Positions 7,001 through 56,101 of a DNA stretch of 64,000 nt are shown one piece after another. Source of the stretch: Candidatus Colwellia aromaticivorans (GTDB lineage: Bacteria > Pseudomonadota > Gammaproteobacteria > Enterobacterales > Alteromonadaceae). Where the stretch lies: contig NZ_QOLD01000073.1 of assembly GCF_003333305.1 (NCBI RefSeq), positions 62,001 through 126,000 on the forward strand, written 5' to 3'. A program made the translations under genes and the position numbers. The notes under the pieces were generated by a model, which was not told the origin of the DNA, did no database searches, and saw only the letters and a program-made list of their open reading frames with translations. Positions within the stretch are counted from its first letter, which is position 1, and every line of letters begins with the position of its first letter.

Positions 7001-7357
7001 TGCGTTGCTGACTTTCAAAAAATTATCATTGACTTTTTTATTAACTAATACCTGTTTATCAGTACTACCATTAATATTTGCAAGAACCGCTGTAGAAATT
7101 CCCCTATGCTGTTGTAGTAATTGGATTAATCTTGATGTTTTTTGTGTCTGATGTAAGCCTTCTAGCTGCTGATTAGCGGTACTGATCGACTCGGACAAAT
7201 AAGAGATTAAATAAATTGAAACAATCAATAATGCAAGAAGTGATAGCCCTCCAAGTACTATAAATTTGCGAAAATAACTCAGGCTTTTCATTAAATTTAT
7301 AGCGGGATTAAATAATTGTTTCACAAAATATTCCTGAAATATACAAGTAAATGACAC
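4100..7357 (-). CDS. Membrane sensor GGDEF-EAL protein with HAMP and two PAS domains
   Basis: This 1085-residue inner-membrane protein should make or break cyclic di-GMP. In order it has a membrane segment (about 31-53), a helical periplasmic sensor resembling NIT or four-helix domains (QQHRGIS near 62), a second membrane segment (about 325-348), HAMP, two PAS domains (about 405-655), GGDEF (motif at 737-741) and EAL (motif at 865-867). The GGDEF site is intact and is preceded by REVD, a product-inhibition site. The EAL side also looks intact (EALLRW, ITEG, DDFGTGYSSL, LKID, EGIE). Translation could instead start at the Met at residue 23 (MKSLSYF). It faces the chemoreceptor upstream in the same direction with a 216-bp gap. 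Confidence 0.88.
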   Translation of the reverse strand: MSFTCIFQEYFVKQLFNPAINLMKSLSYFRKFIVLGGLSLLALLIVSIYLISYLSESISTANQQLEGLHQTQKTSRLIQLLQQHRGISTAVLANINGSTDKQVLVNKKVNDNFLKVSNALPLALKKTAKWSTITDQWKYLNTKKTTLEQENSHSLHTKLIHNLNSFQLKVADYYRLLVMDDLDSYYLTNSVLFTMPITLELLGQARSEGVLYLINKETKYKKNIIKLLANTNIPIGVFKNNMQKVRRGLISDGENITAQALIQTIEQHIKLTLEEVISDTTSISSLEFYTLSTSVIDKGYQFLDNSLSFTLSGLLHSRVTQANTHLIVSIGFSSVLFLIVLYFIIGMYFSTVRSINYLTKVTGKFYNGDLDARVTLDTHDELNNIAIGFNEMAASFQNLLIEKEEITTSLRAIIDNSPIGIWFTGADGRYHFVNKTFCDLVGIEEAEMLNTPSANLADVLGSEMAHNCLDSDRAALEQDLPHVSYEIIPRLNEKPYILEVTKVKLKNTQGELVGLIGISKDITDQRQQEDDLKLADIVYQNSAEAMMITDIKNEIIAINPALSDITGYSRSELIGKDPKIFSSNKQSPQFYQLMWEEIELTGKWQGEIWNTRKNGEDYPEWLSINTIYDDYGKVFRHIALFSDITEEKEANELILRQANYDSLTKLPNRRMFIDRLEQEIKVSQRKKQKFALVFLDLDNFKTINDSRGHAYGDALLIEAGKRITHCVREVDTVARLGGDEFTIILSDLSDIHNVESICQKVLLALSQPFYISKMYTYISASLGITLYPNDASTTVELLKNADQAMYLAKDLGRNQFCYFTASMQEQALNHLELMNDLRKAISLNQLAVFYQPIVELQTGNIRKAEALLRWNHPVRGMVSPAKFIPLAEESGLIVEIGDWVFKQTVQYIKKCKEQLGVDIQISVNKSPVQFRETKNQLDWLTYLTENQLPGKNIVIEITEGLLMNNNINTIERLSQFRAADIELSMDDFGTGYSSLSYLKKFELDYLKIDRSFTKNLAVDSEDMILSEAIITMAQKLGLKVIAEGIETEEQMKLLLDTGCDYGQGYYFSRPIPEDEFMQLLSRTNH

Positions 7358-7573
7358 TGGGTATAAAACCTTAGTAACAGCTTAAAAAAACAAACGGTTA
7401 AAAAATTTCAAGCTGATACAAAAGCCAATTATTATAATGATATTTACCCCATAAAATCAATAAATTAGCGACAAGGTAAATTGTTTTATCGTTCGATTTT
7501 GAGGCTAAGCATATCAAAGCGTAAAGTTTCCTTCTGAGTAAAACAACTCACAAAGTTTGCTTAAATAACCTAA

Positions 7574-9559
7574 CTATACTAAAAACTTAGCAGCCAACCT
7601 TTCAAGGTTATTAGCAATATCTACTTGCTCGTTAGCCGCCTGTGATACATCCTGAGCTCCTGTCGTTACTTCAGCAGATTTTTTATCTATATCATTGACA
7701 TTTTTATTAATTTCTTCTGTCACACTAACTTGCTCTTCTGCCGCTGTAGCTATTTGCTCTATCATCAGATTTATATCAGATACCGCCGTTACGATACTTG
7801 TTAGTGATAATTCAATTTGATGAGCACCATCAATACTTTCATCCGCACGTTTTTGAGTGCCAATAACCATAGTATTTGCACTGTTGGCTTCATTTTGTAA
7901 TTGATTGATAATTCCTTCAATTTCAATGGTGGAATCTTGGGTGCGTTGAGCTAAAGTTCTGACCTCATCAGCGACTACAGCAAAACCTCGACCCTGCTCC
8001 CCTGCTCTAGCCGCTTCTATCGCTGCATTTAGGGCAAGTAAGTTAGTTTGGTCAGCGATACCTTTAATGACATCAATAACATTTGATATATTGGACGTAG
8101 TTGAGTGCAGTCCTGAGATGAGTGAACCTATTTCAGAAACTTCTGATGCTAAATTATTAATTGCTTCTAAAGAATTTCCAACTACAGTTTGGCTTTCAAT
8201 CGCTTTAGTATTCACTTGATGTGTCGATGACATAGCCTCATTAGTATTGCGAGATACTTCTTGAACCGTTGCCGACATTTCCTCTATTGCTGTGGCCACT
8301 TGAGCGGTTTCATCACGCTGCTGCAATAAGCTACCTACATTTTCATTCAAAATAACAGATGATTGTTGTGCAGATGTCGCAAGGGAAATGCTGCTATCTT
8401 TAATTTCAGTGATGGCATGAGAGAAAGTGCTTAGTGTTTTATTTAATCCTTTGGCAACACTACCTAATTCATCCGTGCTAAAGACCTTTGATTGTACCGT
8501 CAAATCATTATTTTCGGTCACTTTTTCCATCGTTACTGAAATTTCCTTTAACTGTTTAATTAAGTTTGTCAAAATAACGTAAACAATAAAAATAGTAATA
8601 ATAAAAGTTGAAATAATAACAAGCAAATTCACAATGAGATTGTTTTTTGCTTCACTAAGCAGCTTGTTAATATCAGAAATAAACTCATCGGCAATTAGGT
8701 TTTCAATATCTTTAAGTGAATTAATTCGTGCGGTAGCATTTTTAAACCATACAGCTGCATCAACATTAAAAGGGCCGTTTTGACCAACAGATAATGCCAC
8801 TTTTCTCATTCGCTTGACTTCAACTACAGCATCATTACTTAATATATTTTTATAAGCATTTACGGTTGTCGATGACGCTTTAAAGATAAACTGCTCGAAA
8901 TAATTATCCTGTAAAGCCATAAGGCTGATAAGTTTTTGAAAGCTTGCTTGTGTGAAGGTATCTTTTGTAAAACCAACACTAACAACAGCACGCTCTATAC
9001 CAGCTCGCTCTTTAGCTTCTAAAAGCACATAATATGCAATGGCATCACCGACTGTTTCTGTTGGACTTATAGCTGAAAAGAACCCTGTTAAGCTAAGCAT
9101 CTTGTGGTTTTGACCAGTGTAATAACCGATAGTCTCACTCATAGGGATTGAAAAATCACCTGAACGAGATCTAATACCATCTAATTTTAATAAGCCATTT
9201 TTAATCGTTGAAACAATCTCATTTACATTATCATTATCAGAAGAAAAACCTTTAAACATTGCATTTAAATCTGTGAGAGCATTATTGGTAAGATTGCGTT
9301 GCTCTTTTAACTCGTCAGAAAAACTGTTTCCTTTACTTCCAATATAAACAGCAGTCGCGCCACGCTCTTTTTGCAACTCATGAACAAGCGCGTTATTAGC
9401 AATAGTTAGGGTAATCAATTCTTGAATATCTTCAAGCTGCCCTTGCTTTGATGTTAAAGCATTTAAATTACTCAAACTGAAATAAAGTGTGGCAAGAAGT
9501 GGTATCAATACAAGTAATATTAACTTTTGTTTAAATACTAAGTTATTAATTAAATTCAT
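7574..9559 (-). CDS. Methyl-accepting chemotaxis protein with NIT sensor domain
   Basis: The 661-residue chemoreceptor has a membrane segment at about 10-30, a helical NIT domain (about 50-300, with [14 protein letters not shown] near 61 and [10 protein letters not shown] near 183), a second membrane segment (about 310-335), HAMP and a long signalling domain. The hairpin tip that binds CheA/CheW is present ([20 protein letters not shown] near 510). NIT domains were defined as nitrate/nitrite sensors, so an N-oxide ligand is possible and fits norCB elsewhere in the window, but the ligand is inference. No C-terminal pentapeptide for CheR tethering is seen; the end is AAKFLV. Confidence 0.9.
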
Positions 9560-42645: not shown

Positions 42646-44523
42646 ATGACTGATAACCTAGCTATTAGCGATGATAAAACATCATCACAGCAGATAATAA
42701 ATGAGTTTGTAGTGCGCTTTGCTAATACCAACGGAACCGGCTCTGCCAGTGCTAACAATATGTTTGCAAAGGCTATTTCACGAATGGGTATTCCGGTAAG
42801 TGCCAAGAATATTTTTCCGTCAAATATTCAAGGTATGCCAACGTGGTACGAAGTTAGAATTTCACAAAAAAATTATTTGGGACGACGTGGCGGTAAAGCT
42901 GAAATGATCGTTGCCATGAATGCTCAAAGTCTCAATGATGATATTAATACAGTAAAAACGGGCGGCTACATACTTTATGATTCAAGCCGAGCTTTATCAG
43001 ATAATCAAATCCGTTCGGATATTAATTATTTAGGCATGCCAATATCAAATATTTGCCTTAAAGAGTATCGTGATCCAAGGCAAAGGCAATTATTCAAAAA
43101 TGTTATTTATGTGGGTGCACTAGCGGCATTATTATGTATGGATTTTGCTTTACTAAAGGCATTGGTTCGCGACCAGTTCAAAGGTAAAGAAAAGCTTATA
43201 ACGCCTAATATATATGCCTTAGAACTCGGTTATCAATATGCGAATGAACACTTTATATGCCCATTAGCAATTAAAGTTGAAAGTCGTGACTTAATTGATA
43301 ATCGGATATTGGTTGATGGTAACACTGCGGTTGGTCTTGGTGCTGTGTATGGTGGTGCTACGGTGGTTGGTTGGTATCCAATTACGCCTTCTACCTCGGT
43401 TATTGAAAAATTTTCCAGCTATTGTCATCGTTTACGAATTGACCCCGCGAGTGGCAAAAAAAATTATGCCATCATACAAGTCGAAGATGAATTAGCCGCA
43501 ATAGGTGTTGCAATAGGTGCCGGTTGGAATGGTGCTAGAGCGTTTACTGCGACGTCTGGTCCCGGTGTGTCATTAATGACCGAATTTTTAGGGCTCGCTT
43601 ACTTTACAGAAGTTCCCATGGTATTGGTGAATGTTCAACGTTCTGGTCCCTCAACTGGTATGCCAACACGTACACAGCAATCTGATATTTTGGCCTGTGC
43701 TTATGCTTCACATGGTGATACTAAGCAAATATTGTTATTTCCACACAGTCCCACTGAATGTTTTGATTTTAGTGCGCAAGCATTTGATATAGCTGAGCAA
43801 CTACAAACACCGGTTATCATAATGAGTGATTTAGATTTGGGCATGAATGAGCACTTGTCAGAAGCGTTTTCTTGGCAAGATGATAAACGCTACGACCAGG
43901 GTAAGGTCTTAACGGCTGAACAACTTGATGAAGTTGAAGTTTTTGGTCGCTATTTAGATGTAGATGATGACGGTATTTGTTATCGCACTTTACCAGGAAC
44001 TCACCCAGAGAAAGGCGCTTTCTTTAATCGTGGTACCTCACGTAATCGCTTTGCTGGCTATACAGAAAAATCTGCCGACTATGTCGATAACATGGAGCGT
44101 TTAACGAAGAAGTTTAATTCAGCTATTAAATTTTTACCTGAGCCAGAAATACAACAAGGCAAGAAAACAGCACCATTGGCACTAATATATTTTGGCACTA
44201 GCAGCCATCCAATTGCTGAGGCAATTGATCAATTACAAGAGCAAGGATTAGCCACTGATACTCTACGAATTAAAGCTTTTCCTTTTCATCAACAAATAGA
44301 GCAGTTTATTGATGAACACTGCCTTAAGAACAAGCAAGTGTTTGTGATAGAGCAAAATCGCGATGCTCAAATGAAAAGTTTACTGGTGAATGAATTACAG
44401 ATAGATCCAAATAAACTGACCAGTATTTTAAATTTTGATGGTTTACCAATCACCAGTGACTTTATTGTGCAAACAGTGTTGGCACAGTTAGCATCACCTC
44501 AATTAAACAAAAAAGTGGGTTAA
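42646..44523 (+). CDS. korA: 2-Oxoacid:acceptor oxidoreductase, fused gamma-alpha subunit
   Basis: The 625-residue protein fuses a gamma domain (about 14-200; NTNGTGSASANNMFAKA) to an alpha domain (about 220-610; VVGWYPITPSTSVIEKF and VQRSGPSTGMPTRTQQSD), the layout of 2-oxoglutarate:ferredoxin oxidoreductase KorA. With KorB it would decarboxylate a 2-oxoacid to the acyl-CoA and pass electrons to iron-sulfur centres. 2-Oxoglutarate is the most likely substrate from the fusion type, but pyruvate or branched acids are not excluded. It follows the flavoprotein by 26 bp. Confidence 0.8.
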   Translation: MTDNLAISDDKTSSQQIINEFVVRFANTNGTGSASANNMFAKAISRMGIPVSAKNIFPSNIQGMPTWYEVRISQKNYLGRRGGKAEMIVAMNAQSLNDDINTVKTGGYILYDSSRALSDNQIRSDINYLGMPISNICLKEYRDPRQRQLFKNVIYVGALAALLCMDFALLKALVRDQFKGKEKLITPNIYALELGYQYANEHFICPLAIKVESRDLIDNRILVDGNTAVGLGAVYGGATVVGWYPITPSTSVIEKFSSYCHRLRIDPASGKKNYAIIQVEDELAAIGVAIGAGWNGARAFTATSGPGVSLMTEFLGLAYFTEVPMVLVNVQRSGPSTGMPTRTQQSDILACAYASHGDTKQILLFPHSPTECFDFSAQAFDIAEQLQTPVIIMSDLDLGMNEHLSEAFSWQDDKRYDQGKVLTAEQLDEVEVFGRYLDVDDDGICYRTLPGTHPEKGAFFNRGTSRNRFAGYTEKSADYVDNMERLTKKFNSAIKFLPEPEIQQGKKTAPLALIYFGTSSHPIAEAIDQLQEQGLATDTLRIKAFPFHQQIEQFIDEHCLKNKQVFVIEQNRDAQMKSLLVNELQIDPNKLTSILNFDGLPITSDFIVQTVLAQLASPQLNKKVG

Positions 44524-44531
44524 TCAGTCAT

Positions 44532-44565
44532 AACCCTCCTCGTGGGCAATTATTTGCCTAGGGTT
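44532..44565 (+). promoter_or_regulatory. Intercistronic hairpin between korA and korB
   Basis: A two-tier stem (AACCCT/AGGGTT outside, GGCAA/TTGCC inside) stands in the 81-bp gap between the two subunit genes. There is no T-run, so it is more likely an mRNA processing or stability element than a full terminator. Confidence 0.4.
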
Positions 44566-44604
44566 TAGAATTTTATATAGTAAAAATAGTTTAAAGGAAT
44601 AGGT

Positions 44605-45657
44605 ATGAGTTTTATTAAATCAACTTTTCGCCATCCGCGTCTTCCTGTTAATGATTTAGGGTTAACATATAGAGATTACGAGGGCGCACTCTCAACCCTT
44701 TGTGCAGGTTGTGGTCATGACTCTTTAACTGCGGCGATCATACAGGCCTGTCATGAATTATCAATTGAGCCTCACAAAGTTGCTAAAATGTCAGGAATAG
44801 GCTGTTCTTCGAAAGCACCTAATTACTTTCTCAATAAAGCGCATGGTTTTAACTCCGTACATGGCCGTATGCCGTCAGTGACTACGGGGGCTAATTTAGC
44901 CAATCAAGAATTACTCTATTTAGCCATGTCAGGTGATGGTGACAGTGCTTCTATTGGTTTTGGGCAATTTGCTCATGTAGTGCGCAGACAATTAAATATG
45001 GTATACATGGTCGCTAATAATGGGGTTTATGGACTAACTAAAGGTCAATTAGCAGCCACTGCCGATAAAGGCGTTAGAAACAAAGGCGGGGATTTAAGTT
45101 TATTTAACGATATTGATTTATGTGTCACGGCACTGCAGTTAGGGGCAAGCTTTGTTGCTCGAAGTTTTTCTGGAGATAAACAACAGCTTGTACCGCTAAT
45201 AAAAGCAGCCATAAGTCATAAAGGTTTTGCTTTCATTGATATTATTTCGCCATGTGTAACCTTTAACAACCATGCTGGCTCTACTCGTTCATATGACTAT
45301 GTGCATGATCATGTTACTACAGGTGCTATTGCTGATTTTGTGCCCGTGAAAACAGAAATCACTAGTAGCGGTGATAGTGCAGAATGTGAAGACGTTTGTT
45401 TGCATGATGGCTCTATTATGCGTATTCAAAAAGTTGATGAAGGTTACGACAGCACTAATGCTAGTCAAGCTATTATGGATATTGAACGACATAAGCAAGA
45501 CGGAAAAATATTAACAGGGCTTTTTTATTTAGAGCCTACTGCCAGTGATTATCATGAAATCAACGATACCAATGACACGCCATTGAATCAGTTAGATCAA
45601 GATGCTCTTTGTCCTGGCAGCCGTGTGTTAAACGGAATTAATGAAAGTTTTCGATGA
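44605..45657 (+). CDS. korB: 2-Oxoacid:acceptor oxidoreductase, beta subunit
   Basis: The 350-residue beta subunit binds thiamine diphosphate and one 4Fe-4S cluster. LCAGCGHDSL near 31, GIGCSSKAPNYF near 67 and the Cys in SPCVTFNNH near 217 supply cluster ligands. The thiamine site is MSGDGDSASIGF (near 112) with VANNGVYGLTKGQ (near 138). An AAAGGA ribosome site lies 7 bases before the ATG. It closes the three-gene operon. Confidence 0.82.
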   Translation: MSFIKSTFRHPRLPVNDLGLTYRDYEGALSTLCAGCGHDSLTAAIIQACHELSIEPHKVAKMSGIGCSSKAPNYFLNKAHGFNSVHGRMPSVTTGANLANQELLYLAMSGDGDSASIGFGQFAHVVRRQLNMVYMVANNGVYGLTKGQLAATADKGVRNKGGDLSLFNDIDLCVTALQLGASFVARSFSGDKQQLVPLIKAAISHKGFAFIDIISPCVTFNNHAGSTRSYDYVHDHVTTGAIADFVPVKTEITSSGDSAECEDVCLHDGSIMRIQKVDEGYDSTNASQAIMDIERHKQDGKILTGLFYLEPTASDYHEINDTNDTPLNQLDQDALCPGSRVLNGINESFR

Positions 45658-46531: not shown

Positions 46532-47812
46532 TTAACCTCGAGTAAACTCTGGGTAGGCTTCCATACCACAATCACTAATATCAACACCTTCGTATTCTTC
46601 TTCTGCACTTACACGGATACCAATAACCTTTTTCAAAGCATACCATACAACAAAACTAGTACAGAATACCCAAACAAAGATAGTTGCCGCGCCAATTAAC
46701 TGACCACTAAAGCTAGCACCTGAATTAGTAATTGGCACAATAAGTAAACCAAAGAAACCAACCACACCATGTACTGAGATAGCCCCTACTGGATCATCAA
46801 TTTTAATTTTATCAAGTGCAATAATCGATATAACAACAATAACACCTGCAATAGCACCGAAAATAGTCGCTTGTAATGGCGAAGGCGTTGAAGGCTCAGC
46901 AGTTATCGCAACCAAACCAGCTAACGCGCCATTTAATGTCATGGTTAAGTCAGCTTTCTTATATAAAATTTTAGCAAAAACTAGCGCAGCAATTGCACCA
47001 GCAGCAGCAGCAGCATTAGTGTTTAAAAATACCATTGCAACTGAGTTAGCACTATTGATGTCTGCAAGTTTTAATACTGAACCACCGTTAAAACCAAACC
47101 AACCCATCCATAAAATGAATGTACCTAACGTAGCCATAGGCAAGTTAGCACCAGGAATAGCATTTACTTTACCGTCTTTAGAATATTTACCTTTACGAGC
47201 GCCAAGTAGTAAAACGCCAGCTAATGCCGCTGAAGCACCTGCCATATGAACAATACCAGAACCTGCAAAATCAGAGAAACCAAGGTCACCTAATGTATAC
47301 ATACCAAAAACAGCATCACCATTCCAAGTCCAAGAACCTTCCATTGGGTATATAAAACCTGTTAAAACTACGGTAAAAGCTAAGAAAGCCCAAAGTTTCA
47401 TACGCTCTGCAACTGCGCCAGATACAATTGACATAGCTGTTGCAACAAATACTACTTGGAAGAAGAAGTCTGAAGCATTTGAGTATACTGCACCGCCATC
47501 AAAACCAGCTTCAGCAGACTCAGCTAATACTGCGCCAACTAACGCTTCAGCATCACTTGCACCATCAAGTGCAATACCATTTAAAAATACACCGCCGCCG
47601 TACATGATGTCGTAACCAACAACTAAATACATAATACAAGCGATAGCATACAAGGCTACGTTCTTTGTTAAAATTTCAGTGGTATTTTTAGCTCTTACTA
47701 AACCGGCTTCTAGCATAGAAAAGCCAGCAGCCATCCACATGACTAACGCACCACAGATAAGAAAATAAAAAGTATCCATGGCATATTGAAGTTGAAAAAT
47801 ATTCTGTTCCAT
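46532..47812 (-). CDS. amtB: Ammonium transporter AmtB
   Basis: AmtB is a trimeric channel for ammonium uptake. The 426-residue protein has eleven membrane segments and motifs such as AAGFSMLEAGLVRAKN near 28, AGSGIVHMAGASAALAG near 183 (pore His) and GTFILWMGWFGFNGGS near 230. The C-terminal tail (EEEYEGVDISDCGMEAYPEF) is the part that binds GlnK. The start is a typical one for forms without a long signal peptide. It follows glnK by 11 bp. Confidence 0.95.
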   Translation of the reverse strand: MEQNIFQLQYAMDTFYFLICGALVMWMAAGFSMLEAGLVRAKNTTEILTKNVALYAIACIMYLVVGYDIMYGGGVFLNGIALDGASDAEALVGAVLAESAEAGFDGGAVYSNASDFFFQVVFVATAMSIVSGAVAERMKLWAFLAFTVVLTGFIYPMEGSWTWNGDAVFGMYTLGDLGFSDFAGSGIVHMAGASAALAGVLLLGARKGKYSKDGKVNAIPGANLPMATLGTFILWMGWFGFNGGSVLKLADINSANSVAMVFLNTNAAAAAGAIAALVFAKILYKKADLTMTLNGALAGLVAITAEPSTPSPLQATIFGAIAGVIVVISIIALDKIKIDDPVGAISVHGVVGFFGLLIVPITNSGASFSGQLIGAATIFVWVFCTSFVVWYALKKVIGIRVSAEEEYEGVDISDCGMEAYPEFTRG

Positions 47813-47823
47813 TATGTTTATCC

Positions 47824-48171
<348 letters not shown>

Positions 48172-48460: not shown

Positions 48461-50617
48461 TTACTTTAATTGCCACACGCTTAAATGAGGAAAGCTTAGC
48501 GTGAAATTTCGCCTATTTATTTTGACAGGGCGCGTTAACTGTTGCTGTTCTATTAAGTTAAAATGCGACGCTAGCTCTAGTGATAAACCCTCAAAACCAG
48601 TAACATTTTCACCATTAATTTTTAGCCCCCCTAACCAGTTCTCTTTACTTGTTTGTTGCTCATCAAAATCATAACTTGAAACAACGATAAGCAAACCCTT
48701 AGCATTTAATCGCGAATGTACTTGTTGCAAAAAAGCGCGAGGATCATAGCTTTGTTCAAGTACGTGCTGAGCAAGGATTACGTCATACCCCTTAAAAACG
48801 CCCTTGAGGTTACTCACATCACCTTGGCTAAAAAATATATTATCGCTACAAGGTAAATCAACATCCATTAAATTGAATTCATGAAAATCAACAATATCTC
48901 CTTCATTTGCTAAGGTATAACGAACAGACTTCCCTTGTTGTAAGTTCACTCCATAACGAATATAACGAGCAGAAAAATCAAGCGCGTCTATTTGATTAAA
49001 GTATTGCGCTAACATAAAGCTTGTTCGACCAACACTACAGCCTAAATCAAGGCAGGTATTAGTCGCTACCCGATATTTTTCAACACACTTTATTATTTCA
49101 TCGGTAATTTGTTGGCTATAATTTTTTACTGCTAGTGGCATAGCAGATTTGGCTTGTCCGTATTGAGCATGTAATTGCTGACAAATTGCAGCATCGTTTT
49201 CATAATGATTAGTTGCAAGGTTAGGTAATTTCTTAGTTTGACTTTGCACATAACGAAAGCCCGCATGTTGAAAGAAGTGACGTCGAAAGGCATAACGCGA
49301 GTATTTCATTGCTTCATTACCAGAAGAAATCCATGACCCCCCTTTAATTAAGTTATGCTTACCGTCAAAGGTCGGGGTAGAAAAATCATCATAGAGCGGA
49401 TGCACGTCAAAGCCATGAAAACTATCAATGGTTGATTCGGTCCATTGCCAAACATTACCGATAATATCAAAAAGTCCATTGTGTTCAAATTGATCAACGG
49501 GGCAAGAAGACGCATAACCTTCGTTATTAAGATTACCAGGCGTTGTTTGCCAGGTAGTTAAGTCACCTGCTACGTTGTCACGTAAGCAAAGCCATTCAGC
49601 TTCAGTAGGTAGGCGGATAAGTTGCCTTTCATTACCGGTACTCTCGCCGTTTTTCCATTGACAAAAAGCTTTAGCTTCAAGGTAATTAACTTCAACAGGC
49701 CAGTTTAACGGTAAAGGGATTTCATTTAATAAGTTACGTTGCCAATAAACTTCCTCATTATTGTCATTCTCTTTTTTAAACCAAAAGTGAGGCATAGTCG
49801 CTTTCGTAAAAGCGAGCCACTGCTGCCCTTCTTCAGTCCAAAACTCACATTGCTGATATCCTTTAGCCTCTATAAAGGCTAAATATTCTTGGTTAGAAAC
49901 GACATACTTTGATGTGCGAAAATCATTTACGCTTAACTGGTCATCACCATATTCATTATCCCAACCAAACGTATCGTCAATCGCAGGTTTACCAAATTCG
50001 ATTAGCCGTCCTTTTATTGGCACCAACTCATTAGTAGGCGCGTTACCTACATGACGGCAAGTAGACCAAGGCTCAACCGCACTAAGATAGTGCAAAGGCA
50101 ACATGCGCATGATCACTGACGAGGTTTCAAGATGAATTCGTTCATGTTCACAACCCATCAGAATAATCCACGCCAATGATTCTTGAGTAATGGGTAATGA
50201 AAGTGGCATGTTATCAATTAAGTTTTCAATTAACTCAGACACTTGCTGCCTATAGATTCTAACCTCATTAACACTGGGCCAATCATAATGCTCACTATTT
50301 AGATCATCCCAGCTCATTTCATCAACACCAACCGCACAAATAGCTTCTAATTTGCTATTGACTCGCTCAGAAATAAATTTACCTAATATAAGTTTATTGA
50401 TATAAAAAGTAGCGGTGTGGCCAAAATAAAAAATCAACGGATGACGTAAACGCTCAGGTCTTAAATAATAAGCACTGTCATCATTAATAAGTGAAAAAAG
50501 AGACTCGTATTTAGCCCATGTTAGCTTGAAGTAGTCTTTTAATTCATCTCTTTTAGCGCTTACACTTGCGCTATTTAGCTGCGGAGGTTTGGCTCGCTGA
50601 TTTTTAGTGATATTCAT
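48461..50617 (-). CDS. ovoA: 5-Histidylcysteine sulfoxide synthase / methyltransferase OvoA
   Basis: OvoA joins cysteine to C5 of histidine with oxygen at a mononuclear iron, then methylates the ring after C-S cleavage, giving ovothiol A. The 718-residue protein has an N-terminal DinB-like domain with the iron motif HX3HXE (His158, His162, Glu164), a formylglycine-enzyme-like sulfatase-modifying domain (about 205-475: RLPTEAEWLCLRD, NVWQWTES, LIKGGSWIS, GFRYV), and a C-terminal methyltransferase (CLDLGCSVGRTSFMLA near 545). All three domains look intact. The PLP lyase for the middle step is not next to it. Confidence 0.92.
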   Translation of the reverse strand: MNITKNQRAKPPQLNSASVSAKRDELKDYFKLTWAKYESLFSLINDDSAYYLRPERLRHPLIFYFGHTATFYINKLILGKFISERVNSKLEAICAVGVDEMSWDDLNSEHYDWPSVNEVRIYRQQVSELIENLIDNMPLSLPITQESLAWIILMGCEHERIHLETSSVIMRMLPLHYLSAVEPWSTCRHVGNAPTNELVPIKGRLIEFGKPAIDDTFGWDNEYGDDQLSVNDFRTSKYVVSNQEYLAFIEAKGYQQCEFWTEEGQQWLAFTKATMPHFWFKKENDNNEEVYWQRNLLNEIPLPLNWPVEVNYLEAKAFCQWKNGESTGNERQLIRLPTEAEWLCLRDNVAGDLTTWQTTPGNLNNEGYASSCPVDQFEHNGLFDIIGNVWQWTESTIDSFHGFDVHPLYDDFSTPTFDGKHNLIKGGSWISSGNEAMKYSRYAFRRHFFQHAGFRYVQSQTKKLPNLATNHYENDAAICQQLHAQYGQAKSAMPLAVKNYSQQITDEIIKCVEKYRVATNTCLDLGCSVGRTSFMLAQYFNQIDALDFSARYIRYGVNLQQGKSVRYTLANEGDIVDFHEFNLMDVDLPCSDNIFFSQGDVSNLKGVFKGYDVILAQHVLEQSYDPRAFLQQVHSRLNAKGLLIVVSSYDFDEQQTSKENWLGGLKINGENVTGFEGLSLELASHFNLIEQQQLTRPVKINRRNFTLSFPHLSVWQLK

Positions 50618-50654: not shown

Positions 50655-51821
50655 CTAGTTAAAAATACTTTTCTGATATTGTGCGAGGATTGCTTGCTGT
50701 ATTTTATCGCCTAACTTCACAGGACAGTCAAATACATTTTTTACTTTCACACTAGCCGTTTTTTCTTCTATAAAATTAATACTATCACTAAACCAAGTAC
50801 TGGCTTTGAATAAATCCAAAGCACCTAAAGTAGCAGTATTTTTTTTATCAGTAAAAAGAGACGATGGTAAAGCTATAGGGGTGAAGCTATCGGTTAATAA
50901 ACACGTTTTTTTCTCATAAGCTTGCACCGTATCTAACACATTTATTAAGCCATAAAGTACATTAATATAAGGGTTGTAATGAATGCTCGCAGCGCCTAAC
51001 CTGTGTTCTATTCGAGCTGTTTTTTGCCAGTTTTGTTGTACCGATAACACATTATTATGACTATCGTATAATAAAGGCTCTTCACCCATATTTTGATTAT
51101 GCTTGCCAAGCTTTTTATACAAGGCAATACTTCCTTGGTGACCACCCGATATATCTACAGGCGAACAGAGCTCTTGCGCTAAACCGTACTGTGTTTTCAA
51201 CGCCAAACGTTCAAAAGCAGCTTCTTCAGGTAAATACAATAAACAACACTCTAAACTAGTGCGCAAAAAACAATTTTGTAAATATTCTCCGAAGCCTTCT
51301 TCAACAATAAGGTTATTGCCGCGACTATCAAGTACGCTAACATTTAATTGCACCGCATTAGGAATATGAACAGCACGCGTATCATTGGTAAAAATTTGAC
51401 TAGAACCCGAAATAAGCTTCCCTTGATCGCCAGACCAAACGACCGGTTGAATCAAGGTCTCTATTACTGCATTTTTGCCATAAAGTTGTTGAAAAAGTTG
51501 CGGTAACCTGGTGATTACTCGGTGTAAATTATGGGCTTCTTTTAATGGCGTTTGACCGTTAAAAAGTGACACGTATTCCCATTGATTTCGCCAATATTCA
51601 CCGACAATTTCACCCTCAATATCTAACTCGCGTAAACACTGGTTAATCTGGCTAAAGTCTAATTTTTGATCCACGTTGTTATCAAAACGATAACATCCCT
51701 CTAACTCAAAATGAATTTGCGCTTTATATCCAAGTCGCTCTAAATAATTCTGCACAAGGTTGATTGCATCTATTGTTAAATGCTGTAGCTCTAATGATTG
51801 TTGAATCAAATGGTTAGTCAT
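50655..51821 (-). CDS. Glutamine-synthetase-like carboxylate-amine ligase, neighbour of ovoA
   Basis: The start MTNHLIQQSL at 51821 gives 388 residues; a longer frame would overlap the upstream gene. I do not know this family by name, but the order of blocks follows glutamine synthetase: AQIHFELEGCYRF (catalytic Glu-x-Glu strand, near 34), NQWEYVSLFNGQTPLKEAHN (second Glu strand), AVQLNVSVLDSRGNNLIVEE (like the H-hQSL-d-G-N block) and RIEHRLGAASIHYNPYINVL (like the R-E-R...NPY block). This suggests ATP-dependent ligation of an amine to a carboxylate. It is 37 bp upstream of ovoA on the same strand, so a role in thiol or amino-acid conjugate synthesis is an inference. Confidence 0.5.
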   Translation of the reverse strand: MTNHLIQQSLELQHLTIDAINLVQNYLERLGYKAQIHFELEGCYRFDNNVDQKLDFSQINQCLRELDIEGEIVGEYWRNQWEYVSLFNGQTPLKEAHNLHRVITRLPQLFQQLYGKNAVIETLIQPVVWSGDQGKLISGSSQIFTNDTRAVHIPNAVQLNVSVLDSRGNNLIVEEGFGEYLQNCFLRTSLECCLLYLPEEAAFERLALKTQYGLAQELCSPVDISGGHQGSIALYKKLGKHNQNMGEEPLLYDSHNNVLSVQQNWQKTARIEHRLGAASIHYNPYINVLYGLINVLDTVQAYEKKTCLLTDSFTPIALPSSLFTDKKNTATLGALDLFKASTWFSDSINFIEEKTASVKVKNVFDCPVKLGDKIQQAILAQYQKSIFN

Positions 51822-51882: not shown

Positions 51883-53760
51883 TCAATATTGCAAAGCTCG
51901 ATTTTTACCACTCGTTTTTGCATTATGTAGCGCTTTATCGGCTTGCAAATATAAGTCTGAACTGTTTATAGTGTCAACCGATGTTGTCGATATTCCAATA
52001 CTAACAGTAAGCTTTACTAGCTGTTTATGACTTCCTTTACCAACATAAAACTCATAACCATGTACTTTTTTTACTAAACGTTGAGCTATATTTAAACATT
52101 GAATACTATCTATTCTTGGCAATACACATAAAAACTGTTCACCACCAACACGACCAATAACATCTTCACTTCTGATGGTATCTTTACCTATTGACGCTAC
52201 CTTACTAATCACTTGATCACCAAAAGCGTGTTTATAAAGATCATTAATCGGCTTAAAATCATCAATATCTATTAGCATTATAGAAACTTGGTTTTTTTCT
52301 AAATTGGTCTCGTTAACAAGCGTATTAAGAAACTCAAGTATATAACGACGATTATATAAATTTGTTAGGGGATCACGAATAGATAGCGTCAATAGTATTT
52401 GATTATTTCGCCATTGAAAATACATAAAAATCAAGCTGAATAAGATAAGTATCACAATACAACTTATAATGTAATTCTGAATGGTATTATCTTGTTTTTG
52501 CTGTGCTAATTGTAATTCATGTACTTTAGCTCTTTGTTGTAACAAAGAGTTTTCTACGTTTTGTCGTTCAGCTTCTAATACACCTCTAACACGTAATAAC
52601 CGATCAGAAGTATTCTTCTTTAATAGTGCAACTTTACGTTGATTAAACTGCTTTAATAATTGATAAGCTTGTTCATTATTACCTTTAGCTTGCTGTAACT
52701 GTGCCCGTATTTCAATAACTTCTATTTGCCATCGAGTACCTATTAACTCAGGCATATTTGCAAAAATAGTCGCAGCATTATCCAAAGCAATGGTAGCAAG
52801 GTGTAACTTGTTTTTGTCTATAAAACACAAAGCCTGACGTTTATAAAGTTCGGCTTTATAGTCAATTAACCCCTTTATACTTAAAGTTTGCTCTATATAA
52901 TCCAACGCTTGAGTGCAATCACCTTTTCCGGCCAAGCTCATTGATATCCCATATAGGCCATAAAAATTACCCTCGATATTATTAAGACTATATTCAATTA
53001 CTTTTTGATAACGATGATAATAATTCAATGCTAAATCATATTTCTGCCAATAACGATAAGTCACCGCTAACCCATATAGCGCTTCAGCCACATGAACCGG
53101 ATAAGCAAGCTGCTGATAGCTTGTTAGTGCTTTTTGATAATACTCAATTGATTGGCCATATTCATTTAAATACCCGTAAATATCACCATAAACTTCATTG
53201 ATTCTAGCAACCAAAAAATCATTATCTAATGCGTAAGCTTCAACGTATGCTTGCTGCAAACCAGTTAGTGAGTATTCATAGTGCTCCGTTAAGCTACGTG
53301 TAAAAGCGAGTTCTAACTTTGCATGAACTGCCAAATCAGTATATTTATGGGTAATTGCAGCTTGTTGCGTTTGCTTTAGTAAGCTTCGAGCTTTTTGGTA
53401 TTTTCCTTGTCGTTGCAGAATAATACCGTAAAAAATATTAAAGTGAATGGCGATACGATCGGGGGTTTTTTCATTTACAAGTGCTTGAGCAGTGGTAACT
53501 GTTTGTTGAAATTCGTCAAAAAGGTCTAATAAATTTTCAGCTTGAGCTTTGCGTAGCAACCACCATAATTTATAATCTGGTGTCGCATCAGCTAATTTAT
53601 CAGCTTGAGACTGAATTTTTTGATAAGTCTGCCATGGCTGTTGATTTAGCTCATGATCCATATTTTGTAATACTAAACTATCATTTAATGGCATTGCACC
53701 AACAGTAAAGTTACTACAAATAAAAAGTACCGCGACTATGGATTTATAAACAAACGGCAA
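51883..53760 (-). CDS. Periplasmic TPR sensor with GGDEF domain, atypical GGEQF motif
   Basis: The 625-residue protein has a signal peptide (cleaved near VGAMPLN), about eight tetratricopeptide repeats in the periplasm (about 40-385), a coiled coil (390-430), one membrane segment (about 432-452) and a cytoplasmic GGDEF domain (about 460-625). The active-site motif is GRVGGEQFLCVLP, with Gln where the second acidic residue normally is, while RSED upstream keeps the inhibition site. DDFKPINDLYKHAFGDQ is normal. Activity is therefore uncertain; it may be a receptor. It lies 61 bp upstream of the glutamine-synthetase-like gene. Confidence 0.82.
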   Translation of the reverse strand: MPFVYKSIVAVLFICSNFTVGAMPLNDSLVLQNMDHELNQQPWQTYQKIQSQADKLADATPDYKLWWLLRKAQAENLLDLFDEFQQTVTTAQALVNEKTPDRIAIHFNIFYGIILQRQGKYQKARSLLKQTQQAAITHKYTDLAVHAKLELAFTRSLTEHYEYSLTGLQQAYVEAYALDNDFLVARINEVYGDIYGYLNEYGQSIEYYQKALTSYQQLAYPVHVAEALYGLAVTYRYWQKYDLALNYYHRYQKVIEYSLNNIEGNFYGLYGISMSLAGKGDCTQALDYIEQTLSIKGLIDYKAELYKRQALCFIDKNKLHLATIALDNAATIFANMPELIGTRWQIEVIEIRAQLQQAKGNNEQAYQLLKQFNQRKVALLKKNTSDRLLRVRGVLEAERQNVENSLLQQRAKVHELQLAQQKQDNTIQNYIISCIVILILFSLIFMYFQWRNNQILLTLSIRDPLTNLYNRRYILEFLNTLVNETNLEKNQVSIMLIDIDDFKPINDLYKHAFGDQVISKVASIGKDTIRSEDVIGRVGGEQFLCVLPRIDSIQCLNIAQRLVKKVHGYEFYVGKGSHKQLVKLTVSIGISTTSVDTINSSDLYLQADKALHNAKTSGKNRALQY

Positions 53761-54267: not shown

Positions 54268-56101
<1,834 letters not shown>

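Follow-up and report, generated by a model that had tools for sequence, protein, structure and literature searches.

The Locus

The window analyzed here, a 64,000-nucleotide stretch of a contig from Candidatus Colwellia aromaticivorans, carries on its minus strand a gene, here named GSL, that lies directly in front of ovoA and encodes a divergent protein of the glutamine synthetase fold. The gene comprises 388 codons plus a stop (51821–50655, a span that takes in the stop codon); it follows a gene for a TPR-GGDEF protein (53760–51883) and precedes ovoA (50617–48461), with 37 bases from its stop codon to the ovoA start codon. Translation could also start earlier, at an in-frame ATG (51923) that would give 422 amino acids, but conservation among relatives sets in later, within the first 12–30 residues of the 388-residue form. 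The identity of ovoA rests on TIGR04344 (646 bits, cutoff 400) and TIGR04345 (247.5 bits, cutoff 170). The host genome measures 3.75 Mb in 101 contigs, and its nearest relatives at the GSL locus bear the name Colwellia. The three genes are as follows.

50655..51821, minus strand: GSL, predicted glutamine-synthetase-fold ligase, 388 amino acids (open reading frame, fold, profile alignment)
48461..50617, minus strand: ovoA, 5-histidylcysteine sulfoxide synthase with C-terminal methyltransferase, 718 amino acids (TIGR04344, TIGR04345)
51883..53760, minus strand: TPR-GGDEF protein directly upstream of GSL (Pfam; orthologue in the same place in 36 of 58 loci)

Relationship to Glutamine Synthetase

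An AlphaFold2 model of GSL (pLDDT 79.3, pTM 0.85) has the glutamine synthetase fold: the best 50 of 655 Foldseek matches all belong to the glutamine synthetase family (best E 1.4e-10), and structural alignment to the M. mazei glutamine synthetase 8s59 gives a Z score of 24.1 over 282 residues at 3.8 Å. A second model, built from 13 sequences (the window and related loci; pLDDT 76.9), returned a Foldseek E of 5.9e-10 and a Z score of 24.1 against 8tfk (275 residues, 3.2 Å). No glutamate-cysteine ligase appeared among the best 50 structure matches of each search with either model, a result that excludes nothing.

Profile-profile comparison (hhalign) of 66 GSL sequences with 49 diverse glutamine synthetases gave P 5.1e-8 and a score of 66.8, whereas five control profiles (the reversed alignment, GCS2, a pyridoxal phosphate [PLP] enzyme, a GGDEF protein, and OvoA) gave P values of 0.14–0.25 and scores of 17.6–21.1; the match to GCS2 (P 0.23) was not significant. 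An initial comparison with 17 close GlnA sequences was likewise not significant (P 0.1); significance was reached only with the 49 diverse synthetases and the 66 GSL rows, and the controls were therefore added. The 49 synthetases are what remained of 51 hidden Markov model (HMM) matches after two were dropped for length; 6 of 30 loci were left out of the GCS2 set and 13 of 30 out of the earlier GlnA set. Given the profile controls and the fold matches, a chance likeness between GSL and glutamine synthetase is very unlikely. GSL is a divergent glutamine-synthetase-fold protein, and it represents a new, divergent family of predicted carboxylate-amine ligases.

The preliminary description, made from the window's sequence, had recognized the blocks of this fold next to ovoA and had held that the protein is not a normal glutamine synthetase. 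The first point agrees with the fold and profile results (Z 24.1, P 5.1e-8), and the second with the missing PF00120 match and the absent N-terminal part; neither outcome that it had named as counting against its view, lack of a fold match or homologs never found with ovoA, occurred. The HMM search that it proposed gave no match to PF00120, PF04107, or PF04262; the match to glutamine synthetase came from the profile-profile comparison. Searches of Pfam, NCBIfam, and PDB sequences gave no match at a meaningful score. PF00120 (Gln-synt_C) did not match the window's GSL at E≤1 and touched only one of 20 family members (E 0.19), and no match to PF03951 (the N-terminal domain) was listed for the window's GSL or the 20 members. 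PF04107 (GCS2) matched neither GSL nor, at E≤0.001, anything in the host genome; PF04262 (GshA) did not match GSL, and the sole PF04262 match of the host genome lies on another contig (C78). Since these two defining features, the Pfam match and the N-terminal domain, were tested and not found, we do not file GSL as a glutamine synthetase.

Two database families were considered for GSL and rejected. MAAL_C scored E 0.018 (14.7 bits, cutoff 27) and touched 6 of the 20 members (best E 0.00086); the match spans residues 20–89 only, and the predicted fold does not support it. About the same stretch was aligned with methylaspartate ammonia-lyase in the PDB sequence search, at E 1. DUF3014 reached only E 0.13 in Pfam.

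That GSL is an ordinary ammonia-assimilating glutamine synthetase that happens to stand beside ovoA, in Colwellia by glnK-amtB, would agree with the fold and with the position of glnK-amtB-like genes just after ovoA, both in the window and at 8 of the 12 named loci. However, the host genome has a PF00120 glutamine synthetase of its own (459.9 bits), GSL is not among the genome's two PF00120 matches and lacks the N-terminal part, and four of the named loci (L010, L012, L013, and L014) keep GSL without glnK-amtB beside ovoA. We regard this reading as refuted in the main and scarcely credible.

The Active Site

The blocks that the preliminary description had named are present, and the profile-profile alignment pairs them with those of glutamine synthetase in the correct order. 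The metal, ATP, and glutamate roles named here belong to the corresponding residues of glutamine synthetase. The E-x-E strand is matched by E39-x-E41, and the next two acidic positions by E75 and by Q80-W-E82. R205 falls on the YKRL Arg, and RIEVR has its equivalent in R270-I-E272-H-R274, after which N-P-Y follows; in A156-V-Q158-L-N160-V-S162, ahead of G-N-N-L, the residues Q158-x-N160-x-S162 pair with H-x-H-x-S. The C-terminal LPxSL region of glutamine synthetase also aligns. Invariant in 66 distinct GSL sequences are E39, E41, E75, E82, Q158, N160, R205, R270, E272, and R274 (E39 and R274 each read as X in one of the 66), and likewise E217, K240, and H241. The elements of the site, in window coordinates, are these.

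51696..51713, minus strand: HFELEG, residues 37–42, E-x-E metal strand (profile alignment)
51576..51599, minus strand: EYWRNQWE, residues 75–82, second and third acidic positions (profile alignment)
51336..51368, minus strand: HIPNAVQLNVS, residues 152–162, Q-x-N replacing H-x-H (profile alignment)
51207..51209, minus strand: R205, aligned with the YKRL Arg (profile alignment)
51129..51173, minus strand: ELCSPVDISGGHQGS, residues 217–231, family-specific loop, mostly of low model confidence (model and alignment)
51093..51107, minus strand: GKHNQ, residues 239–243, with invariant K240 and H241 (profile alignment)
51000..51014, minus strand: RIEHR, residues 270–274, aligned with RIEVR (profile alignment)

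The position of R205 is that of the glutamate-binding Arg of YKRL in glutamine synthetase, and R274, E41, and E75 also align with glutamate-binding positions there. A well-conserved long loop (E217-L-x-S-P through G-G-x-Q-G-S), of which residues 217–231 would lie about where glutamine synthetase has its glutamate flap, precedes K240 and H241; these two fall at about the place that phosphate-binding Arg residues occupy in glutamine synthetase. K240-H241-N-Q243 stands in place of the phosphate-binding Arg stretch, and the invariant basic residues near strand 5 include no Arg.

At the N-terminus, 38 residues precede E39 in GSL versus 128 before the same Glu in the host's own GlnA, which indicates that the N-terminal beta-grasp part (about 90 residues) is absent; the alignment to glutamine synthetase starts at template column 97 of 456. 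In glutamine synthetase this part reaches into the active site of the neighboring subunit and holds the ammonium.

Measured against the features given for glutamine-synthetase-fold ligases in PMC2588565 (like the other papers below, drawn on here in excerpt), GSL has Ex[EH] on core strand 1 in E39-x-E41, with H37 in place of the G of GhExE, and the acids of strands 2 and 3 in E75 and E82 (66 of 66 sequences; model strands 70–74 and 80–85). On core strand 4, Q158-x-N160 (strand 157–164) follows the [HQ]x[NH] form of PafA and not the [HD]x[NH] form of other members. Of Ex[RK]x2D on core strand 6, E272-x-R274 is kept and the D position is not D (EHRLGA); for the Arg of core strand 5 and the loop Arg, GSL has an invariant R205 further in front and the basic K240 and H241 near strand 5.

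The losses at this site are what one would look for in a protein derived from glutamine synthetase that no longer ligates and serves as a regulator, scaffold, or partner of OvoA: the N-terminal part and the phosphate-binding Arg are gone, a metal His has become Gln, and the frequent upstream neighbor is a signaling-type protein. Yet all of the aligned metal acids, together with R205, R270, E272, and R274, are kept without variation across 66 sequences, a constancy that one would not usually expect of a pseudoenzyme, and Q-x-N fits the PafA pattern (PMC2588565, excerpt); a loss of ligase function is improbable.

Linkage to ovoA

Among 216 genomes of the window's family, GSL occurs in 56 and ovoA above cutoff in 69; all 56 copies of GSL have ovoA directly downstream on the same strand, with 37–159 bp between the two matches. 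A sample of 394 genomes of the order contains GSL in 9 and ovoA above cutoff in 69, and all nine adjoin ovoA on the same strand. The two samples overlap in five GSL genomes, so that GSL and ovoA are adjacent in 60 of 60 different genomes, with four order genomes beyond the 56 of the family; in this survey, of the kind that the preliminary description had proposed, the gene tracks tightly with ovoA. The order is the same in all 12 named loci (L003–L014, of which L012 and L014 at least are among the 60 genomes), although in L013 ovoA is split into two frames. Fisher's test gives 1.3e-39, a value that treats genomes as independent, which they are not. No GSL without ovoA was seen in the family and order samples.

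Counted from the starts of the longest reading frames, GSL and ovoA lie −110 to 77 bp apart at the 58 loci examined, a spacing as in an operon. These neighborhood counts cover 58 of the 60 GSL genomes; G835 and the window's own genome are left out, and G759 is counted through L014, which is assumed to be the same contig on account of the equal length (56,193 bases).

Beyond the order, GSL was found in 2 of 369 genomes sampled from the class and 2 of 289 from the phylum, the same two genomes in both cases and both of the window's family; among the samples searched it was thus seen in one order only. Viral contigs yielded three pattern matches and no relative. Two further candidates, L015 and L016 (13.7 and 13.4 bits), looked RelA/SpoT-like by eye and were dropped.

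Some copies depart in length. Those at L226, L229, and L230 have frames of 457–458 residues versus 365–425 for most others, with the extra residues near the E-x-E strand, and in these genomes the profile matches break at positions 40–48. At L239 GSL lies in two frames (147 and 253 residues) beside an intact ovoA frame, a frameshift of the genome or of the assembly.

Descent and Selection

On a tree of 96 OvoA sequences (59 from genomes with GSL and 37 without), the presence of GSL needs two changes, interpreted as a single gain followed by a loss in G776. The tree is a quick LG+G4 reconstruction, to which the order sample contributed its 30 best-scoring ovoA loci, six of them dropped as duplicates. 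The pairing of GSL and ovoA is one old partnership kept through deep divergence and not 60 separate events: GSL is retained in 59 of the 60 ovoA loci on its side of the tree, up to about 50% amino acid difference in OvoA. Distances of GSL and OvoA correlate (r 0.82 across 57 genomes), with none of 999 permutations as high. In comparisons with three close relatives, nonsynonymous divergence (dN) of GSL is 0.067–0.084 and synonymous divergence (dS) 0.42–0.60, a dN/dS of about 0.15, and the gene is under purifying selection. In L241–L244, four genomes that come from three further families of this order, OvoA falls inside or at the edge of the GSL clade, a placement that would fit transfer of the GSL-ovoA pair as a unit.

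One gain and one loss would also explain the distribution if GSL were a passenger that entered beside ovoA once and has been carried along without functional link. This we consider very improbable in view of its retention in 59 of 60 loci over such divergence, the lesser constancy of the other neighbors (the TPR-GGDEF protein in 36 of 58 loci and the PLP enzyme in 37 of 58), the low dN/dS, and the lack of any GSL without ovoA in the family and order samples.

The GSL-less genome within the clade, G776 (locus L184), has no recognizable GSL remnant; its assembly is listed as 80% complete. A gap of 366 bases (7342–7707) lies upstream of its OvoA, with a relative of the GGDEF protein (28.5% identity) upstream.

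OvoA and the Probable Place of GSL in the Pathway

The preliminary description had offered two roles for GSL, the formation of an amide (gamma-glutamyl or other) of ovothiol, histidine, or cysteine, and the supply of a precursor. In the latter case GSL would make a substrate for OvoA, such as gamma-glutamyl-histidine or gamma-glutamyl-cysteine, and so play the part that EgtA has with respect to EgtB. The fixed position of GSL in front of ovoA would suit such a role, and so would the presence of glutamate-cysteine ligases in the same superfamily (PMC2588565, excerpt), the resemblance of EgtA of the ergothioneine cluster to glutamate-cysteine ligase (PMC9103826, excerpt), and the occurrence of Q-x-N in GCS2 sequences (VQVNLD); the profile match of GSL to GCS2, however, was not significant. 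If GSL were a substrate supplier, a changed OvoA would be expected beside it, but OvoA is nearly alike with and without GSL. Three positions separate the two groups (residues 94, 148, and 395 in the window's numbering) under a criterion that asks for a residue in at least 90% of 59 OvoA sequences with GSL and at most 10% of 36 without (L184 left out), and that finds only residues conserved in the former and rare in the latter; 132 positions are shared as invariant by the two groups (a residue found in 97% or more of either), and no sequence of either group (59 with GSL, 36 without) has lost the EHExxH metal motif. Moreover, all 28 genomes tested for gshA (PF04262) have it, among them 23 that carry GSL, so gamma-glutamyl-cysteine should already be available. 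Precursor supply, weakened by the OvoA and gshA data, seems to us rather unlikely.

At all 58 loci the OvoA reading frame beside GSL measures 701–755 residues, enough to accommodate the methyltransferase, and each of the four OvoA sequences scanned contains the TIGR04345 domain. On balance, the little-changed OvoA, the presence of gshA, and the full length of OvoA suggest that GSL acts on a product of the ovothiol pathway rather than furnishing a precursor.

Proposed Function

The fold, the conserved site, the purifying selection, and the strict and old linkage to ovoA are observed. From them we infer both ligase activity and membership in the ovothiol pathway, and the reading that we favor, to which we give about an even chance, is that GSL is an ATP-dependent ligase that tailors the pathway product into an amide of 5-thiohistidine or ovothiol. 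An amide of the product, gamma-glutamyl or other, is the part of the earlier functional suggestion that remains the best reading.

In the superfamily's two-step chemistry, a carboxylate would be phosphorylated by ATP at the metal site (E39, E41, E75, E82, Q158, and E272) and the acyl phosphate would then be passed to an amine. The likeliest donor would be the gamma-carboxylate of glutamate, because R205 and R274 align with glutamate-binding residues of glutamine synthetase; the likeliest acceptor would be the alpha-amine of 5-thiohistidine or ovothiol A, and with the beta-grasp part lost there would be room on the acceptor side for an amine of larger size. This choice of donor and acceptor is a guess that applies the superfamily's habit to the genomic context. 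The resulting product, gamma-glutamyl-5-thiohistidine or gamma-glutamyl-ovothiol, would be an undescribed low-molecular-weight thiol, and we put it forward only tentatively.

The roles could be reversed, so that 5-thiohistidine or ovothiol supplies the acyl group from its carboxylate and GSL joins it to an amino acid, a polyamine, or ammonia, which would yield a peptide or amide of ovothiol. Fold and linkage serve this alternative equally, and the flap loop (217–231) and the phosphate-binding region, both unlike those of glutamine synthetase, would suit another donor. It is nevertheless unlikely, as the residues at the presumed glutamate-binding positions (R205, R274, E41, and E75) are invariant and the superfamily usually employs the gamma-carboxylate of glutamate (PMC2588565, excerpt).

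Several observations weigh against product tailoring by GSL. Of the 69 ovoA genomes of the family, 13 have no GSL, which is therefore dispensable to having ovoA; and the 60 genomes do not amount to independent support, since the ovoA tree has only a single gain and a single loss of GSL. In the alignment the n2-metal His is Gln in GSL and two phosphate-binding Arg residues have no clear counterpart (K240 and H241 stand there instead); in the predicted structure, loops 132–149 and 216–229, part of the likely substrate pocket, have low model confidence. The assignment of a substrate is itself wholly inferential. In OvoA, residue 94 (50336–50338, minus strand) is Cys in 59 of 59 sequences with GSL versus F, M, L, or V in 36 without, and residue 156 (50150–50152, minus strand), which adjoins the EHExxH motif, is Cys in 39 of 59 versus Ile in 35 of 36. 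The two Cys are possibly the mark of a changed OvoA, and a subtle change of this kind would favor precursor supply; residue 156 led us to raise our estimate for that role very slightly.

If the gamma-glutamyl product is correct, marine Colwellia, Thalassotalea, and their kin would use a glutathione-like form of ovothiol alongside glutathione; more generally, an ovothiol amide would mean that bacteria build ovothiol into larger thiols, as they build cysteine into glutathione. GSL would also be a glutamine synthetase core that works without the N-terminal beta-grasp part. Hardly any enzyme is known that acts on ovothiol or uses it, and a study of 2025 describes OvoA as the sole known enzyme, apart from the acetyltransferase of that study, to take a 5-thiohistidine as substrate (PMC12631010, excerpt); OvoM, a free-standing 5-thiohistidine methyltransferase, is also on record in the PDB. 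In the open-licence PMC literature, the titles and abstract openings of the best-matching papers (up to 15 per search) name no ligase and no gene resembling glutamine synthetase in connection with ovoA, and in the available portions of PMC9103826 and PMC10805701 the words “glutamine synthetase” occur only in the title of a cited reference. As a single gene, GSL can be expressed, assayed, and deleted.

Neighboring Genes

Of the 58 loci, 36 have the TPR-GGDEF gene as the immediate upstream neighbor of GSL, 37 have a gene for a PLP enzyme immediately behind ovoA, and 33 have both. The window's TPR-GGDEF protein reads RVGGEQF where 30 of 38 orthologue frames of GSL loci read R[IV]GGEEF (six of the 38 have no match and two matched elsewhere); judging by this motif, the window's copy may be altered in the cyclase site.

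Two members of the PLP enzyme family were scanned (L012:11277–12431 and L010:11289–12491). Their best NCBIfam models are PRK07324, GntC, and VioD, all below cutoff, with the PatB C-S lyase scoring below these, and the best PDB match is an entry named “Aminotransferase class I and II”. The enzyme behind ovoA is no more than a candidate for the OvoB lyase. Its relatives in the window's own genome are weak, the best of them at 24% identity.

Directly after ovoA, in the window (46532–48162, minus strand) and in 8 of the 12 named loci, come glnK- and amtB-like genes, recognized by eye; they are not beside ovoA in L010, L012, L013, and L014, and they are probably a local Colwellia arrangement and not part of the unit. 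Two genes resembling norB and norC, for nitric oxide reductase, lie further upstream (54268–56101, minus strand), and two genes resembling subunits of 2-oxoacid:ferredoxin oxidoreductase occupy 42646–45657 (plus strand), both assignments being by eye only.

Comparison with Known Systems

Over its whole length, GSL shares its catalytic fold with glutamine synthetase and its gamma-glutamyl-amide relatives in PF00120 (GlnA, GmaS, and the 1-naphthylamine glutamine synthetase; Z 21–24 in the listed matches), together with E-x-E, the second and third acids, the Ser of strand 4, the YKRL Arg, RIExR, NPY, and LPxSL. It differs from these enzymes in having no Pfam match, a shorter N-terminus, Q-x-N for H-x-H, and a longer flap loop. 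The family is without a Pfam or NCBIfam model and is a new branch of the glutamine-synthetase-fold ligases. The guanido kinase branch of the fold lacks the ligase ExE signature, and GSL, with E39-x-E41, does not belong to it; the GhExE signature is described as found only in ligases (PMC2588565, excerpt), though its G is not kept in GSL.

Within the same superfamily, GSL agrees in core strand 4 with the [HQ]x[NH] pattern described for PafA, the Pup ligase (PMC2588565, excerpt). Like PafA and the GCS2 ligases, GSL presumably ligates an amino group larger than ammonia. Unlike GCS2, it has no PF04107 match or significant profile match, and its C-terminal RIEHR...NPY is as in glutamine synthetase. 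EgtA has a GCS2-type sequence and supplies the substrate of EgtB. It resembles GSL as a ligase gene in a sulfoxide-synthase pathway, that of ergothioneine (PMC9103826, excerpt), but GSL is not GCS2-like by profile.

The closest parallel in context is 5THNAT of Proteiniphilum, which was found from the gene neighborhood of OvoA and shown to acetylate 5-thiohistidine (PMC12631010, excerpt); it is an enzyme encoded beside ovoA that modifies 5-thiohistidine, as is proposed for GSL. 5THNAT is of GNAT type and uses acetyl-CoA, whereas GSL has the glutamine synthetase fold, and at some 5THNAT loci OvoA lacks the methyltransferase, whereas OvoA beside GSL is full length in 58 of 58 loci. The authors of that study argue that the chemistry of 5-thiohistidine may have a greater diversity than has been assumed (PMC12631010, excerpt).

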